From contig NZ_FXTL01000007.1 of assembly GCF_900182665.1 (NCBI RefSeq), forward strand, positions 62,001-126,000: DNA of 64,000 nucleotides. Direction: 5' to 3'. Shown in pieces: positions 28,094-34,141 of the stretch. This DNA comes from Propioniciclava tarda (lineage in GTDB: Bacteria; Actinomycetota; Actinomycetes; Propionibacteriales; Propionibacteriaceae). The translations under genes were made by a program, and so were the position numbers. The stretch's first letter is position 1. Each line of letters begins with the position of its first letter. The notes beneath the pieces were generated by a model, which saw only the letters and a list, made by a program, of their open reading frames with translations, was not told the origin of the DNA and searched no databases.

Positions 28094-28396
28094 CTAGCGC
28101 GCGAGCACCTCGACGCGGCAACGCAGCCCGGACGCCCGAGCCAGCCGGGCATCCGCGGTCAGCAGGGTGGCGTCCATCGCCTCGGCACGTGCGACATAGG
28201 CGGCGTCGTAGATCGTGAGGTTGTTGCACAGTTCCCAACAGCTCAGCAGGAGGCCGACCCGTTGCAGGGGCAGTTCGGCGAGGTCGCTGAGGGCCAGCGC
28301 TGCCCGCCGGTCCGTGAGCTGGCCACCTCTCGACAAGCCGCGCCAGGCCGAGGTTACCTCGAGGTCGATCAGCGCCGGAGCGGCCAGCTCTTCGCC
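28094..28396 (-). pseudogene. N-terminally deleted VapC-type PIN-domain toxin
   Basis: The translated remnant reads EELAAPALIDLEVTSAWRG, then DLAELPLQRVGLLLSCWELC, NNLTIYDAAYVARAEAMDAT and LLTADARLARA, which is the body of a VapC PIN ribonuclease with two of its acidic catalytic positions (YDAAYVA and TADARLA). The first strand with the initial catalytic Asp is absent: going upstream the frame runs straight into the end of the molybdenum hydroxylase gene. No VapB antitoxin is nearby. ATG/TTG starts internal to the frame would give an inactive 80-aa protein. Confidence 0.7.
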
Positions 28397-28456
28397 GCTG
28401 AGCCGACTTCGTGCCCTCTCCCGAGGCCGCTGAAAGGCGCGCGTTTTGTCCGCGGT

Positions 28457-31393
28457 TCAGCGGTGCTGCAGGCCGACCGTGGGGGTCTGTAGGGCGTTCC
28501 AAACCCGCTCCGGGGTGAAGGGCAGGTTGTCGATCGCGACGCCGGTGGCGTTCAGGATCGCGTTCCGGACGGCCGGCGCGACGGCGTCCTTCGGGATCTC
28601 CGCGACCGCCTTGGCGCCGAATGGACCCGTCTTCTCCCAGGTCTGGACCAGGTAGACCTCCACGTCCGGCATCTCGTCGGCGCGGTAGATCTTGTACGGA
28701 CCGAACTGGGCGTTCAGCATGCGGCCGCCCTCGTCGAAGGCGTACTCCTCGCAGTGCGCGTAGCCGAGCGCCTGGATCAGGCCGCCCTCGACCTGACCGG
28801 ACGCGGTGACCGGGTTGATCGCGACGCCGCAGTCGACGGCCATGACCAGCTTCTTGACGGTCACCTGGCCGGTCGTGATGTCGACCTCGACCTCGGCCAT
28901 CTTGGCCGCGAACGGCGGCGGGCAGTCGACGGCCATGAAGGACTCGACGGCCATGATCTGCTCCTGGTCCTTCTGGTGGAGTGAGTGCAGCGCCACCCGT
29001 TCGAGCGTCACCGAACGGCCGTCGGACGCCCACGCCTCGCCGTCGCGCAGGGTGACGCCGTCGGCGTCCACCTCGAGGAGCATGGCCGCCCGCTCGCGGA
29101 TCCGCTGAGCGACCTTCTCGGCCGCCCGCTTGACCGCCGTGCCGGAGATGTACGTCGTCGAGCTGGCGTAGGCGCCGACGTCGAACGGGGTCATGTCGGT
29201 GTCGGAGGAGTAGACCAAGATGCGGTCCAGCGGGACGCCCAGCGTTTCGGCGGCGATCTGGCCGAGCACCGTGTCGGCTCCCGTGCCGATGTCGGTGGCC
29301 CCGATCAGCAGGTTGAACGAGCCGTCGTCGTTGATCTTGATGGACGCGCCGCCCATGTCGAGGAACGGAATTCCCGAGCCGTGCATGGCGAGCGCGAAGC
29401 CGATGCCGCGGCGGATGTTCGGCCGATCCTTCGGGGAGACCCAGTCGGGGTCGTTCCGGCGATGCCAGCCGATCGCCCGCTGAGCCTGGGCGACGCACTC
29501 CTCGGTGCCGCAGGTCATCACCTTGGGGTACTCGTCGAGTTCCTCCTGGATGGCGGTCTCGCCCAGGTGCGGCGCGATGTCGAGCTCGTCGCCGACCTTG
29601 ACCCAGTTCTTGCGCTTGAACTCCAAGACGTCGAGGCCCAACTCGTGGGCGATGTCCTCAAGGTGCGCCTCGAGCGCGAACTCCGACTGTGGAGCCCCGT
29701 AGCCGCGGTAGGCGCCCGGCACCGGGATGTTGGTGTAGACCACGTCGCAGCGGAACCGCTTGTTCTTGGCGTTGTACTGCGACAGCCCGCGCATGCCGGT
29801 GATCGTCTGGACGGTGTAGCCGTGCGAGCCGTAGGCACCGGTATTGCCGATGACGTACAGGTCCTGGGCGAGGAGGGTGCCGTCCTCGGCGACGCCGGTG
29901 CGGTAGGTCAGCGTCTGCGGGTGGCGCGTCCGAGCCGAGATGAACTCCTCTTCGCGCGTCAGAACCAGCCGCACCGGACGCCTCGTCCGGATGGCCAGCA
30001 ACGCGACGATGTCTTCGATCAGCATCTCCTGCTTGGCGCCGAAGCCGCCGCCGATGCGCGGCTTGATGACCCGAATGTCGCGGACGGGCATCTCGATCAG
30101 CGGCGCGATCATCCGCCGGACATGGAACGGCACCTGGGTGGCCGTACGGATCACCATGCGCTCGTCCTCGTCGAGCCAGGCCACGGCGACGTGCGGCTCC
30201 ATCGGGCACTGCTGCACCTGGTGGACGCGGAACGTCTGCTCGAAGTAATGCGGCGCCTCGGCCAGCGCCTTCTCGACGTCGCCGCGCTCGGCGAAGATCC
30301 AGTGCACCTTGTTGAGGGACGCGTCCCGGATGTGCTCGGTGTCGTCCTCGTCGTGGATGACAGGAGCGCCCGGCTTCAGCGCCTCGCGCTCGTCGAAGAC
30401 GGCCGGCAGCACGTCGTAGGTCACCCTGATCAGGCGGCAGGCCTCGGCGGCGATCTCCTCGCTGTCGGCCGCGACGGCGGCCACGCGGTCGCCCACGTGC
30501 CGGACCTTGTTGTCGAAGCTGACCTGGTCGTACGGATGCGGGTTGGGGTAGCTCTGCCCGCCCGAGGCGTACTTGATGCGCTTGGTGTTCTTGTAATGCA
30601 GCACCTCGTGGACGCCGGGCAAGGCGCGCGCGGCCGAGTCGTCGATGTCGAGGATCCGGGCGTGGGCATGCGGCGAGCGCAGCACCTTCGCGGTGAGGGT
30701 GCCCCGCAGCTCGATGTCGTCGGTGAACGCGGGATTGCCCTTGGCGAGCTTGACGATGTCGACCTTCAGCTCCGGGTGGCCGACGACGGCCAGGTCCGGC
30801 ACGTCGCGCGACGGGATCACCTTCGGCACGGCCGGGCGCACGTCCGGCGGCATGGCCGACGGGTCGTAGGCCGACGCGTGGACGCCGTCGGTCAACGCCT
30901 CGACGACGTGAACCGCGAACGGCTCGACCGGCTCGCCGCGCAGCACGGACGCCGCGCGCAGCACCGCCTCGACCGGCTTCACGTACCCCGACTCGCGGTC
31001 GAGGATGCCACTCAGCATGTCGCGAACCTCACCTTCGCTCGGCGACGGACTCCGCCGCAGCAGCGCCAGCGTGCCGAGCACCATCGCTCCGGACGAGTAG
31101 CCCGACTGCAGCGCGCCGACATCGGCGAATGCCTGCTGGATCGGATGCAACTCCCGCGCGGTGTTGAGCGCCTCGACCGTGGTGACCTCATGGCCGTCGG
31201 CCTGCAGTGCCAGCATCACGTCGGCGCTGGCCAACTCGCCGTCCAGCAGCACCGCGGCGGCGCCCGTCTCGCCCGTCTCGGACGCGAACCGGACCGATTT
31301 GAGCCCCTCCGCGCGCAGGACGTCCATCAGGGTCGCGCCTGGCGAGACGTCGCGGGTGATCAGCGTGCCGTTCAGGGTGAAAGTGAGGTTCAT
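28457..31393 (-). CDS. xanthine dehydrogenase-family molybdenum hydroxylase fused to a cysteine-less ferredoxin-like domain
   Basis: 978 aa. Residues 1-160 have the fold pattern of the two-cluster 2Fe-2S domain (VRFASETGETGAAAVLLDG; QSGYSSGAMVL; LSGILDRESGYVKP), but all eight cluster cysteines are replaced (positions 38, 43, 46, 58, 97, 100, 132, 134). From about residue 200 the large molybdopterin subunit is intact: KGNPAFTDDIELRGTL, QVQQCPMEPHVA, IGGGFGAKQE, GAYRGYGAPQSEFALE and GPFGAKAVAEIP, with the catalytic Glu. The fused order and GAYRGYGA motif resemble selenium-dependent xanthine dehydrogenases. Substrate unknown; it lies between NAD genes, so a pyridine or purine ring is plausible. 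The FAD subunit is 11 bp upstream. Confidence 0.88.
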   Translation of the reverse strand: MNLTFTLNGTLITRDVSPGATLMDVLRAEGLKSVRFASETGETGAAAVLLDGELASADVMLALQADGHEVTTVEALNTARELHPIQQAFADVGALQSGYSSGAMVLGTLALLRRSPSPSEGEVRDMLSGILDRESGYVKPVEAVLRAASVLRGEPVEPFAVHVVEALTDGVHASAYDPSAMPPDVRPAVPKVIPSRDVPDLAVVGHPELKVDIVKLAKGNPAFTDDIELRGTLTAKVLRSPHAHARILDIDDSAARALPGVHEVLHYKNTKRIKYASGGQSYPNPHPYDQVSFDNKVRHVGDRVAAVAADSEEIAAEACRLIRVTYDVLPAVFDEREALKPGAPVIHDEDDTEHIRDASLNKVHWIFAERGDVEKALAEAPHYFEQTFRVHQVQQCPMEPHVAVAWLDEDERMVIRTATQVPFHVRRMIAPLIEMPVRDIRVIKPRIGGGFGAKQEMLIEDIVALLAIRTRRPVRLVLTREEEFISARTRHPQTLTYRTGVAEDGTLLAQDLYVIGNTGAYGSHGYTVQTITGMRGLSQYNAKNKRFRCDVVYTNIPVPGAYRGYGAPQSEFALEAHLEDIAHELGLDVLEFKRKNWVKVGDELDIAPHLGETAIQEELDEYPKVMTCGTEECVAQAQRAIGWHRRNDPDWVSPKDRPNIRRGIGFALAMHGSGIPFLDMGGASIKINDDGSFNLLIGATDIGTGADTVLGQIAAETLGVPLDRILVYSSDTDMTPFDVGAYASSTTYISGTAVKRAAEKVAQRIRERAAMLLEVDADGVTLRDGEAWASDGRSVTLERVALHSLHQKDQEQIMAVESFMAVDCPPPFAAKMAEVEVDITTGQVTVKKLVMAVDCGVAINPVTASGQVEGGLIQALGYAHCEEYAFDEGGRMLNAQFGPYKIYRADEMPDVEVYLVQTWEKTGPFGAKAVAEIPKDAVAPAVRNAILNATGVAIDNLPFTPERVWNALQTPTVGLQHR

Positions 31394-31404: not shown

Positions 31405-32157
31405 TCAGTTGGACGCCAGCGCGTCGAGGACGCGTGCCAGATGGACGGCGGCCAGGTGTCGCCGGTAGTCGGCGCTGCCGCGGAAGTCGGCCGAGGGTTC
31501 CAGCCAGGACGCCGGATCGGCGGCCTCGGCGTCCACCACGATCGGCGTCGCGGCGACGCCGGTGACGGCGCGCGCGACCGAGCGGTCGGGACGGCGGCGT
31601 CCGACGACGGCGACGATGGGGACGTCGGCCGGGGTGCGCCGGGTCGCCGACGTAGCCCAGGTGCCGTCGGTCGCCACGACGACCGCCGTGATCACGCCGC
31701 GGCCTACGCCCTCGGCCAGCACGGTCGCCAGCGCGACCGTCCGCTCCCCGGACGCGTCCGCCAGCACGACGGAGGCGTCCGCGGCCAACAGCCCCGCGAG
31801 CAGGACGCTCTCGGGGTCCCGGCCTGCCACGACACCGCCGATGGTCGCCCGGCCGCGCAGCGTGGACGGCTCCTCGGCGCGCGCGAGATCCCTCAGCGCG
31901 CCCGGCAGCGATTCGGTGTCGGCCACGGCCTGCAGCGACGCCATCGCGCCCAGCCGGACGCGACCCGCGGCGTCCGAGACGATCGACGACAGCCCCAGCG
32001 ACTGCAAGTCGACGACCTCGATGTCGCCCAACTCGCCGGTGTTGAGGCGTCCGACCAGGTCGGAGCCGCCGCCGAGAACGTGGGCTCCGTCCCGCTCCAG
32101 GAGGGCGAGCGCCTCCTCCAGGCTGGACGGGCGGTGATAGGCCGATACTCGCGGCAT
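31405..32157 (-). CDS. FAD-binding subunit of molybdenum hydroxylase
   Basis: 250 aa. It opens with the CoxM/XdhB-type pattern YHRPSSLEEALALLERDGAH, then VLGGGSDLVGRLNTGEL for FAD binding, RVRLGAMASLQAVADTESL and the TLRGRATIGGVVAGRDPESV stretch, where the second FAD motif normally reads I.N.ATIGGN. The C-terminal CO dehydrogenase flavoprotein domain is present. A textbook AAGGAGG precedes ATG 32157. It is paired with the large subunit downstream (11 bp). With no Fe-S clusters between the molybdenum site and the flavin, direct electron transfer would have to be unconventional. Confidence 0.85.
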   Translation of the reverse strand: MPRVSAYHRPSSLEEALALLERDGAHVLGGGSDLVGRLNTGELGDIEVVDLQSLGLSSIVSDAAGRVRLGAMASLQAVADTESLPGALRDLARAEEPSTLRGRATIGGVVAGRDPESVLLAGLLAADASVVLADASGERTVALATVLAEGVGRGVITAVVVATDGTWATSATRRTPADVPIVAVVGRRRPDRSVARAVTGVAATPIVVDAEAADPASWLEPSADFRGSADYRRHLAAVHLARVLDALASN

Positions 32158-32276: not shown

Positions 32277-33197
32277 TCAGCGCGAGCGCGTCGTGGGCAG
32301 CTTGGTGCCGGCCGCCGAGCGCTGCTGAACGACGTCGCGCCGGAAGCGGTAGAGCCGCGCCGGACGCCCTCCCGTCGCCGCGGAGGCGCCGGTGTCCTCC
32401 ACCAGCGCTTGCTGTTCGATGAGGCGGCGGAAGTTCTGCGTGTGGACGGCTCGTCCGGCCAGGGCCTCGACGCACGACTGAAGCTGGCCGAGCGTGAACT
32501 CGTCGGGCATCAGTTCGAACACGACCGGCCGGTAGGTGATCTTGGCGCGCAGCCGGGCCACCGCCGTGGCGACGATGCGGCGATGGTCGGCGTCCATCCT
32601 GACGCCGGTGAACGGTGCCGAGACGCCGCCGGGAGCCTCCGCGATCAGCCCGGCCTCGTAGAGCAGTTCGTAGCGCTGCAGGGCCAGGTCGGGCTCCCAG
32701 GGCTGGGAGTCCAGCCCGAACAGGGACGCCGCCCGCGCGGCCCGCCGCTCGCGGGCGGTCGCGTCGGCGTCCTCGACCCAGGTCCGGACGCCGCCGACGA
32801 CGGCGTCCAGCGCGGACGTGCCGTCGCGCAGGTCCTCGGAGGGGAACAGCTCGTACCACGGACGCCACACGCCGCTGCGCGGCCCCGTGCCGGAGTTCGC
32901 GGTGAGGCCCAGGTAGCAGATCGAGATGCGCCGCGCCGCCCGGTCGCGGTCGGAGTCGGCGAACGTGTACAGCTGCTCGAGGTAGCCGAGCTGGCGTCCG
33001 GTCTGGCTCTCCGCCCACGCCCGCACTGCGGCCTGCAGCGACCGGTGGCCCTCGAGGAGCGGTCCGGAGGGCAGGCGCGTCGCGTCGTTCACCTCCAGGA
33101 CGCAGGGCGTGCCGTCCACCATGGCCACGACCACCGCGACGACCTCGGCCGCGACCGCCTGGGCGGCGGTCGGGTCCGGCGTCGGCGTCGTGGTCAT
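32277..33197 (-). CDS. nrtR: NrtR-type NUDIX-like transcriptional regulator of NAD metabolism
   Basis: 306 aa from ATG 33197, overlapping the upstream phosphotransferase stop by 4 bp (ATGA). The N-terminal half folds like a NUDIX protein (VEVVAVVVAMV-like strand, LQAAVRAWAESQTGRQLGYL) but lacks the catalytic GX5EX7REUXEEXGU box, so it is probably a ligand-binding domain. The C-terminal winged helix (LMPDEFTLGQLQSCVEALAG, NFRRLIEQQALVEDTG, GGRPARLYRFRRDV) is the NrtR DNA-binding type. Expected to sense ADP-ribose or a nucleotide and control nadABC 4 kb away (inference from family). Confidence 0.85.
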   Translation of the reverse strand: MTTTPTPDPTAAQAVAAEVVAVVVAMVDGTPCVLEVNDATRLPSGPLLEGHRSLQAAVRAWAESQTGRQLGYLEQLYTFADSDRDRAARRISICYLGLTANSGTGPRSGVWRPWYELFPSEDLRDGTSALDAVVGGVRTWVEDADATARERRAARAASLFGLDSQPWEPDLALQRYELLYEAGLIAEAPGGVSAPFTGVRMDADHRRIVATAVARLRAKITYRPVVFELMPDEFTLGQLQSCVEALAGRAVHTQNFRRLIEQQALVEDTGASAATGGRPARLYRFRRDVVQQRSAAGTKLPTTRSR

Positions 33198-34141
33198 GAG
33201 GAGAGGATATTCGGACGCCGACGCGGCGGCTCGCCGACGTCGAGGGGCTCTGCCGCCAGGGAGTCCAGGGCCTGGTGGGCGACGGCCAGCAGCGGCGGGC
33301 TGTCGTCGGAGTTCGTGACGAACGCCAAAGCCAGGTACAGCGCCCAGGCGCGCGCTCGAGTCCAGACGTGCGGGTCGTAGGGGCCGGCGGACGCGGCGGC
33401 AACGAAGCGGCGGCGTCCGGCTCGGTCGTAGCTGAGCCACGCGGTCGCGAGGTCGGTAGCGGGGTCGCCGCAGCCGACGTCGCCCCAGTCGAGGACGCCG
33501 GCGAGGCGTCCGGAGTCAGCGAGCAGCAGGTTCAGCGGATGCAGGTCGCCGTGCAGCCACACCGGCGGGCCGCCCCAGGCGGGCGCGGCCGACCACGCCG
33601 CCCAACGGGCGGCCAGGTCCTCGCTCGCGCGGTTGTAGGAGGCCAGTCGGGTGGCGACGCGCTGACTCATCACGTCGCCGCCGATGGGGCCACCCCGCCA
33701 AGGGTTCACGGGGGCGTCCGCTGGCGCGGTGGTGTGCAGCGCGACCAGCGTCTCCGCGAGGTCCGTGGCCGACGGCGTCCGCTGGGCGATTCCGACGTCC
33801 GAACAGCGGATCCCGTCGCGATAAGGGGAGATGAGCCACGGGTGCGGGAAGTCGGCCGACGGCGTCCCGGCGTGCACGGCGGCGGGAACGAACGTGTTCA
33901 GGCGCGGTGCGAGGACCGGCAGCCAGTCGCGCTCGTGGGCGATGAGCGGGACCGCCAGCGCGCGCCGCGGCAGGCGCACCAGCAGGTCGTCGCCGAGGCG
34001 GTACAGCACGTTGTCCCAGCCATGCCCCAGTTCGGCGATCGGCAACTCAGCCCACTCCGGACGCTGCTGCCCGATCAGCCGCCGGACCAGGTGCTCGTCG
34101 ATCGGCCACTCGGCAGCCGGGATGTCGCCCACAGGTGCCAT
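33194..34141 (-). CDS. aminoglycoside phosphotransferase-like kinase (APH family)
   Basis: 315 aa. The kinase-like fold is visible in ELGHGWDNVLYRLGDDLLVR near the ATP site, WLHGDLHPLNLLLADSGRLA (catalytic HGDLHPxN) and VLDWGDVGCGDPATDLA (metal Asp). APH family members phosphorylate antibiotics, amino sugars or small metabolites; resistance is not implied. It is translationally coupled to nrtR by an ATGA overlap and divergent from the Eda-like gene across 8 bp. Confidence 0.85.
   Translation of the reverse strand: MAPVGDIPAAEWPIDEHLVRRLIGQQRPEWAELPIAELGHGWDNVLYRLGDDLLVRLPRRALAVPLIAHERDWLPVLAPRLNTFVPAAVHAGTPSADFPHPWLISPYRDGIRCSDVGIAQRTPSATDLAETLVALHTTAPADAPVNPWRGGPIGGDVMSQRVATRLASYNRASEDLAARWAAWSAAPAWGGPPVWLHGDLHPLNLLLADSGRLAGVLDWGDVGCGDPATDLATAWLSYDRAGRRRFVAAASAGPYDPHVWTRARAWALYLALAFVTNSDDSPPLLAVAHQALDSLAAEPLDVGEPPRRRPNILSS

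Follow-up and report, generated by a model that had tools for sequence, protein, structure and literature searches.

A probably cluster-free member of the xanthine oxidase family in Propioniciclava tarda, related to the urate reductase XdhD

The xdhD-like locus of P. tarda

Here, we analysed a gene pair on a stretch of 64,000 nucleotides from Propioniciclava tarda (the window). A complete open reading frame with an ATG start encodes an XdhD-like protein of 978 amino acids, in which an Fe-S-type domain is fused to a molybdopterin domain, and a ygfM-like gene for an FAD subunit is located directly upstream on the same strand (Table 1). The larger frame matches the Pfam profiles Fer2_2 (59.7 bits, cut-off 30.3), Ald_Xan_dh_C, MoCoBD_1 and MoCoBD_2, and its residues 1-160 align over their full length to solved two-cluster subunits, e.g. 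4zoh_C, 1rm6_C and 1n5w_A. The MoCo-binding domains and the catalytic glutamate make the protein a member of the xanthine oxidase family; the GPFGAKAVAEIP glutamate (E932), GGGFGAKQ and AYRGYGAPQ are all kept. An AlphaFold model (pLDDT 80, pTM 0.83) retains the family fold and resembles the fused Fe-S/Mo enzymes 1dgj and 1sij, its confidence being lower in the blocks that contain the former cluster loops.

Xanthine dehydrogenases and aldehyde oxidoreductases (1rm6, 1dgj, 1sij) share with the P. tarda protein their fold, domain order, catalytic glutamate and molybdopterin site. They carry two [2Fe-2S] clusters, whereas the P. tarda protein has a ligand for neither, as none of the eight family cysteines is present. 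The cysteine columns were read after aligning the protein to 26 intact Fe-S domains and are occupied by S38, T43, A46, D58, S97, S100, D132 and E134, the same eight residues that an earlier note on this DNA had named. Its further claims, that the remaining domain and the molybdopterin domain with its catalytic glutamate are intact, that the FAD partner is encoded next door and that the protein has lost the normal Fe-S wire but not its fold, likewise hold in the alignments, Pfam domains and gene order. A substitute cluster motif was not found: the eight remaining cysteines all lie in the molybdenum part and form no CxxC-type motif. An Fe-S or replacement-metal motif in the FAD subunit was discarded as well, since this protein has no cysteine at all. 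Judged from these residues, the folded P. tarda protein would contain no cluster.

The xdhD-like gene adjoins nadABC and is located outside any urate operon, which counts against a function as urate reductase. Between it and nadA lies a PIN-domain (VapC-like) fragment, for which the first 19 profile positions are missing and which has the appearance of a toxin remnant left at an insertion scar. A possible NAD-related regulator, a protein with an NrtR-type winged-helix domain, is encoded near nadABC and upstream of the ygfM-like gene. A function tied to these adjacent NAD genes was considered and rejected, as the conserved neighbours of the relatives give no pointer to NAD synthesis.

Table 1 Features of the xdhD-like locus (positions in the window).
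Feature	Position	Strand	Basis or occurrence
xdhD-like gene, fused cluster-free Fe-S domain and molybdopterin domain, 978 aa	28457..31393	-	ORF, domain profiles, structure matches, trees
Two-cluster [2Fe-2S] domain without cluster cysteine, residues 1-160	30914..31393	-	Fer2_2 above cut-off, alignments
Ser38 for Cys, N-terminal ferredoxin-like cluster	31280..31282	-	36/36; codons TCC, TCG, TCA, TCT, AGC, AGT
Thr43 for Cys	31265..31267	-	36/36; four codons
Ala46 for Cys	31256..31258	-	A/G/S across clade
Asp58 for Cys	31220..31222	-	36/36; GAC 18, GAT 18
Ser97 for Cys, C-terminal helical-domain cluster	31103..31105	-	36/36; four codons
Ser100 for Cys	31094..31096	-	S/A/T across clade
Asp132 for Cys	30998..31000	-	36/36; two codons
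Glu134 for Cys	30992..30994	-	36/36; two codons
Molybdopterin domain, residues 200-970	28484..30796	-	MoCoBD_1, MoCoBD_2, Ald_Xan_dh_C; 1rm6_A, E 2.9e-106
Glu612, counterpart of Glu606 in E. coli XdhD, which is proposed to orient urate	29558..29560	-	Alignment; PMC12507026 (available text)
Glu932, Glu in GAKAVAE motif, catalytic Glu position of the xanthine oxidase family	28598..28600	-	Alignment
ygfM-like FAD subunit, flavin motifs LGGGS and TIGG kept, no Cys	31405..32130	-	FAD_binding_5, 65.8 bits; best NCBIfam match TIGR03312
PIN-domain (VapC-like) fragment	28094..28420	-	
NrtR-type winged-helix protein	32277..33440	-	

Conservation and repeated loss of the cluster cysteines

A scan of genome contigs for relatives yielded 66 loci. 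Complete loss of the cysteines is common to 36 sequences from separate assemblies of Acidimicrobiia and Chloroflexota, the P. tarda protein counted in, a recurrence of one pattern that goes beyond chance or sequencing error. S38, T43, D58, S97, D132 and E134 are invariant in all of them with varying codons, the loops around the former cysteines are conserved (GETGAxAVLxDG, QSGY, DRE), and dN/dS of the Fe-S domain amounts to 0.027-0.098 in close pairs of the clade. Invariant replacements, codon variation and low dN/dS together indicate that selection maintains the domain in its cluster-free form. Hence, the clade-wide sharing asked about in the earlier note was found, and the substitutions are not peculiar to one decaying allele; decay or a sequence artefact has a negligible probability in view of the invariant residues with synonymous codon variation and of dN/dS values of 0.03-0.10 here and 0 to 0.023 in the Fe-S domain of E. 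coli XdhD. Among 148 genomes of its order, the gene was found only in P. tarda (E <= 1e-150), which suggests that it was acquired by horizontal transfer.

The loss did not occur only once. E. coli XdhD has none of the eight cluster cysteines and carries a different set of replacements (D A D S / S N S D), and in the tree it is sister to the XdhD-like protein of Cetobacterium somerae (L113:11992-14856), its closest sampled relative, with all eight cysteines intact (support 100/100). The C. somerae gene belongs to a urate gene cluster with ssnA and genes for a YgeX-type lyase, YgeY and a YgfM-like protein. Placing all cysteine-less proteins in a single clade was rejected by the AU test with a p-AU of 1.6e-57, a value to be read in the light of long branches and of a grouping chosen by cysteine pattern. 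A single origin is thus rejected on the molybdenum-domain tree and the AU test: cysteines were completely lost at least twice, in E. coli and in the Acidimicrobiia/Chloroflexota lineage, and a half loss took place in Caldilineaceae. In three proteins of this family (L041:5619-8567, L043:10001-13051 and L044:3540-6554), which have the same fused architecture and approximately 55-57% identity to the P. tarda protein, the replacements (D S D G) are confined to the four ligands of the N-terminal ferredoxin-type cluster, while CGYC and the C-terminal pair are retained. Replacement residues differ among the E. coli, Acidimicrobiia/Chloroflexota and Caldilineaceae losses. All eight cysteines are present in two Chloroflexota sister proteins (L045, L049); the flanking sequence examined for them, a small sample, contains no YgfM-like gene, unlike that of the cysteine-less loci.

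Relation to E. coli XdhD and the urate pathway

The molybdenum-domain tree groups the P. tarda protein with the XdhD proteins of E. coli and Cetobacterium, apart from XdhA-type enzymes (96/91). The earlier note knew of no described family with this pattern, a claim that does not stand: E. coli XdhD shows the same complete loss and is described as a urate reductase in the available text of PMC12507026. According to that text (2025), E. coli XdhD and a co-purified protein of approximately 30 kDa, putatively YgfM, turn urate into yanthine with NADH, and no yanthine is formed once xdhD has been deleted. A cysteine-less relative thus still performs net redox chemistry. The E. coli XdhD (YgfN)-YgfM pair (TIGR03313/TIGR03312) and its P. 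tarda counterpart have in common the fused Fe-S-type and molybdenum domains, an FAD subunit gene immediately upstream, the absence of all eight cysteines, the glutamate at position 606 or 612, respectively, and a genome that encodes the urate pathway. They differ in their replacement residues and lost the cysteines independently. At 36%, the identity between the two proteins is low and counts against a urate-reductase reading, and the score of the P. tarda protein with TIGR03313, the equivalog NCBIfam model of XdhD, stays below the cut-off (655 versus 1101.9 bits), which counts against XdhD identity. Hence, the protein is XdhD-like and no member of TIGR03313; this label is based on the tree, the active-site glutamate and the genomic context.

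The active-site residue is shared widely. An equivalent of Glu606 was found in 36 of 36 cysteine-less sequences and in nine further sampled sequences of the XdhD group; XdhA and other molybdenum hydroxylases lack it. Intact clusters are found in six members of the subclade on the E. coli side of the tree (L103-L106, L111, L112); the two of them examined for this residue, L103 and L104, lack the glutamate, so that membership in the clade by itself does not fix function.

Genomic context adds to the picture. YgfM is present in all 34 cysteine-less loci with a readable upstream flank, with GG and TxGG motifs kept. Operons of the Acidimicrobiia relatives comprise YgfM, SsnA-like amidohydrolases, YqeB and YqeC, the latter two downstream in most cases, and HyuA in some; one Chloroflexota relative also has YgeW, YgeY and HyuA at its locus. 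Luciferase-family genes are frequent neighbours, matching Chloroflexota clusters for which the available text of PMC12507026 describes a putative F420-dependent step by a luciferase-family enzyme. The P. tarda genome has its urate genes elsewhere: YgfK, SsnA and HyuA lie together and YgeW, YgeY and YqeA together in a separate place, both groups on contigs other than that of the xdhD-like gene, and a third locus (L078; G000:C4:106000-124500) holds YgeX, two purine permeases, an intact fused molybdenum hydroxylase, YqeB, YqeC and SelD. This third locus also encodes a SirA-like protein and an aminotransferase-V-type lyase and resembles a selenium-dependent molybdenum hydroxylase cluster, and all three marker genes of such enzymes (YqeB, YqeC, SelD) are present in the genome. 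With XdhD-YgfM, P. tarda possesses homologues for every reductive urate step of E. coli named in the available part of PMC12507026. P. tarda thus shows two traits of an XdhD-type urate reductase, a YgfM-type FAD subunit encoded next to the enzyme and the genes of the urate pathway elsewhere on its contigs.

Taken from homology and genomic context, the gene pair probably encodes a urate reductase of the XdhD-YgfM type without an Fe-S relay, and urate reduction in P. tarda would proceed by analogy with E. coli XdhD. Reductive urate breakdown would begin at the molybdenum domain, which would take the C6 oxygen from uric acid and yield yanthine (2,8-dioxopurine), and the two-cluster Fe-S domain would serve as a cluster-free scaffold between flavin subunit and molybdenum domain.

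E. coli K-12 xdhD (L005:11317-14187) bears the RefSeq product name of an Fe-S binding subunit, despite having no cluster cysteine. Of 5426 complete E. coli genomes, 5130 carry the cysteine-less domain, and thousands of genomes probably bear a wrong product name. Missing cluster ligands of XdhD are not mentioned in the available text of PMC12507026, of the commentary PMC12990295 and of the older PMC2276186 and PMC2997495, nor did we find a report of Fe-S ligand loss in the xanthine oxidase family in the open-access literature, which is not proof of absence. Apparently, the missing ligands of XdhD and their repeated loss have so far gone unreported.

Electron supply without an Fe-S relay

How should electrons reach the molybdenum in an enzyme without clusters? 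In the XdhD literature, as far as its text is available, electron transfer is described as if it were like that of an ordinary xanthine dehydrogenase. In Kdh, an intact relative, the cofactors are spaced by 13.5, 13.8 and 10.8 Å, and steps below approximately 14 Å are usual (PMC8305194). Modelling suggests that E. coli YgfM docks in the usual place (PMC12507026, available text). Without clusters and with such docking, the gap between FAD and molybdenum is too far for one step, which counts against a flavin-driven reduction. Two kinds of compensating element were sought and rejected. Beyond the cysteine sites, the cysteine-less enzymes are set apart from cysteine-bearing relatives by scattered positions, none of which forms an obvious wire, so that neither a specific new partner nor an electron-hopping residue emerged. 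A single alternative donor gene beside all cysteine-less enzymes was not found either, as the luciferase-family gene accompanies many Acidimicrobiia and was not found in the P. tarda genome, which has YgfK.

We find it evenly balanced whether this relay-free enzyme of the xanthine oxidase family, with at least two origins in the urate-reductase clade, therefore has its molybdenum reduced in a way undescribed for the family, be it by a new electron path, by a new cofactor in the empty pockets or by purine-to-purine oxygen exchange. Regarding the individual routes, electrons from the YgfM flavin could reach the molybdenum by a path other than a 2Fe-2S relay, through different docking or an unrecognised carrier, a reading we put forward tentatively. 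We prefer it over an exchange because every readable cysteine-less locus still encodes YgfM, GG and TxGG motifs included.

In the less likely case of an exchange, a redox-neutral ping-pong reaction at the molybdenum would pass oxygen from urate to a second purine or take two electrons from another substrate, using the same pocket and no internal wire, with YgfM as structural partner. Pyrogallol-phloroglucinol transhydroxylase of the DMSO reductase family, a molybdenum enzyme catalysing a net non-redox hydroxyl transfer, is a precedent; its fold and family are unrelated to the xanthine oxidase family and it has its own Fe-S subunit. The exchange fits the loss of all relay ligands at least twice in one family while the molybdenum pocket stayed almost unchanged, a mere handful of non-cysteine positions separating cysteine-less from cysteine-bearing enzymes. 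Moreover, the controls named for the XdhD assay in the available text of PMC12507026 are those without enzyme or substrate, a control without NADH not being stated there. However, the same text reports that urate, NADH and enzyme alone still gave yanthine, and a flavin subunit whose motifs are preserved throughout would be superfluous for a pure exchange.

It is improbable that another metal or cofactor has taken the place of the clusters, bound in their old pockets by the conserved Ser, Thr, Asp and Glu residues and carrying electrons. Six of the eight replacements are polar or acidic and do not vary, and the loops keep their cluster-loop sequence, but hydrogen bonding in an empty pocket accounts for the same conservation, and the differing sets of E. 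coli and Caldilineaceae offer no common ligand set. Even less probable, indeed very nearly dismissible, is the borrowing of an intact Fe-S subunit encoded elsewhere, a case the earlier note had named as speaking against its reading: the P. tarda genome does encode three intact Fer2_2 domains, but each has a molybdenum subunit of its own, encoded alongside or fused to it (an XdhABC type, a fused molybdenum hydroxylase and an XdhC plus Mo type), none of all Fer2_2 matches is an orphan, and the cluster-free domain is fused at the very place of the small subunit.

In E. coli XdhD and, independently, in a large Acidimicrobiia/Chloroflexota lineage, the ligands of both clusters are missing, and the current understanding of XdhD is therefore incomplete: either flavin electrons reach the molybdenum otherwise, or the reaction differs from what the assay suggests. 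The cysteine-bearing Cetobacterium enzyme, the half-lost Caldilineaceae enzymes and the cysteine-less enzymes form a natural series for testing the electron path of XdhD, the enzyme that starts the urate breakdown route by which gut bacteria have been proposed to lower blood urate.
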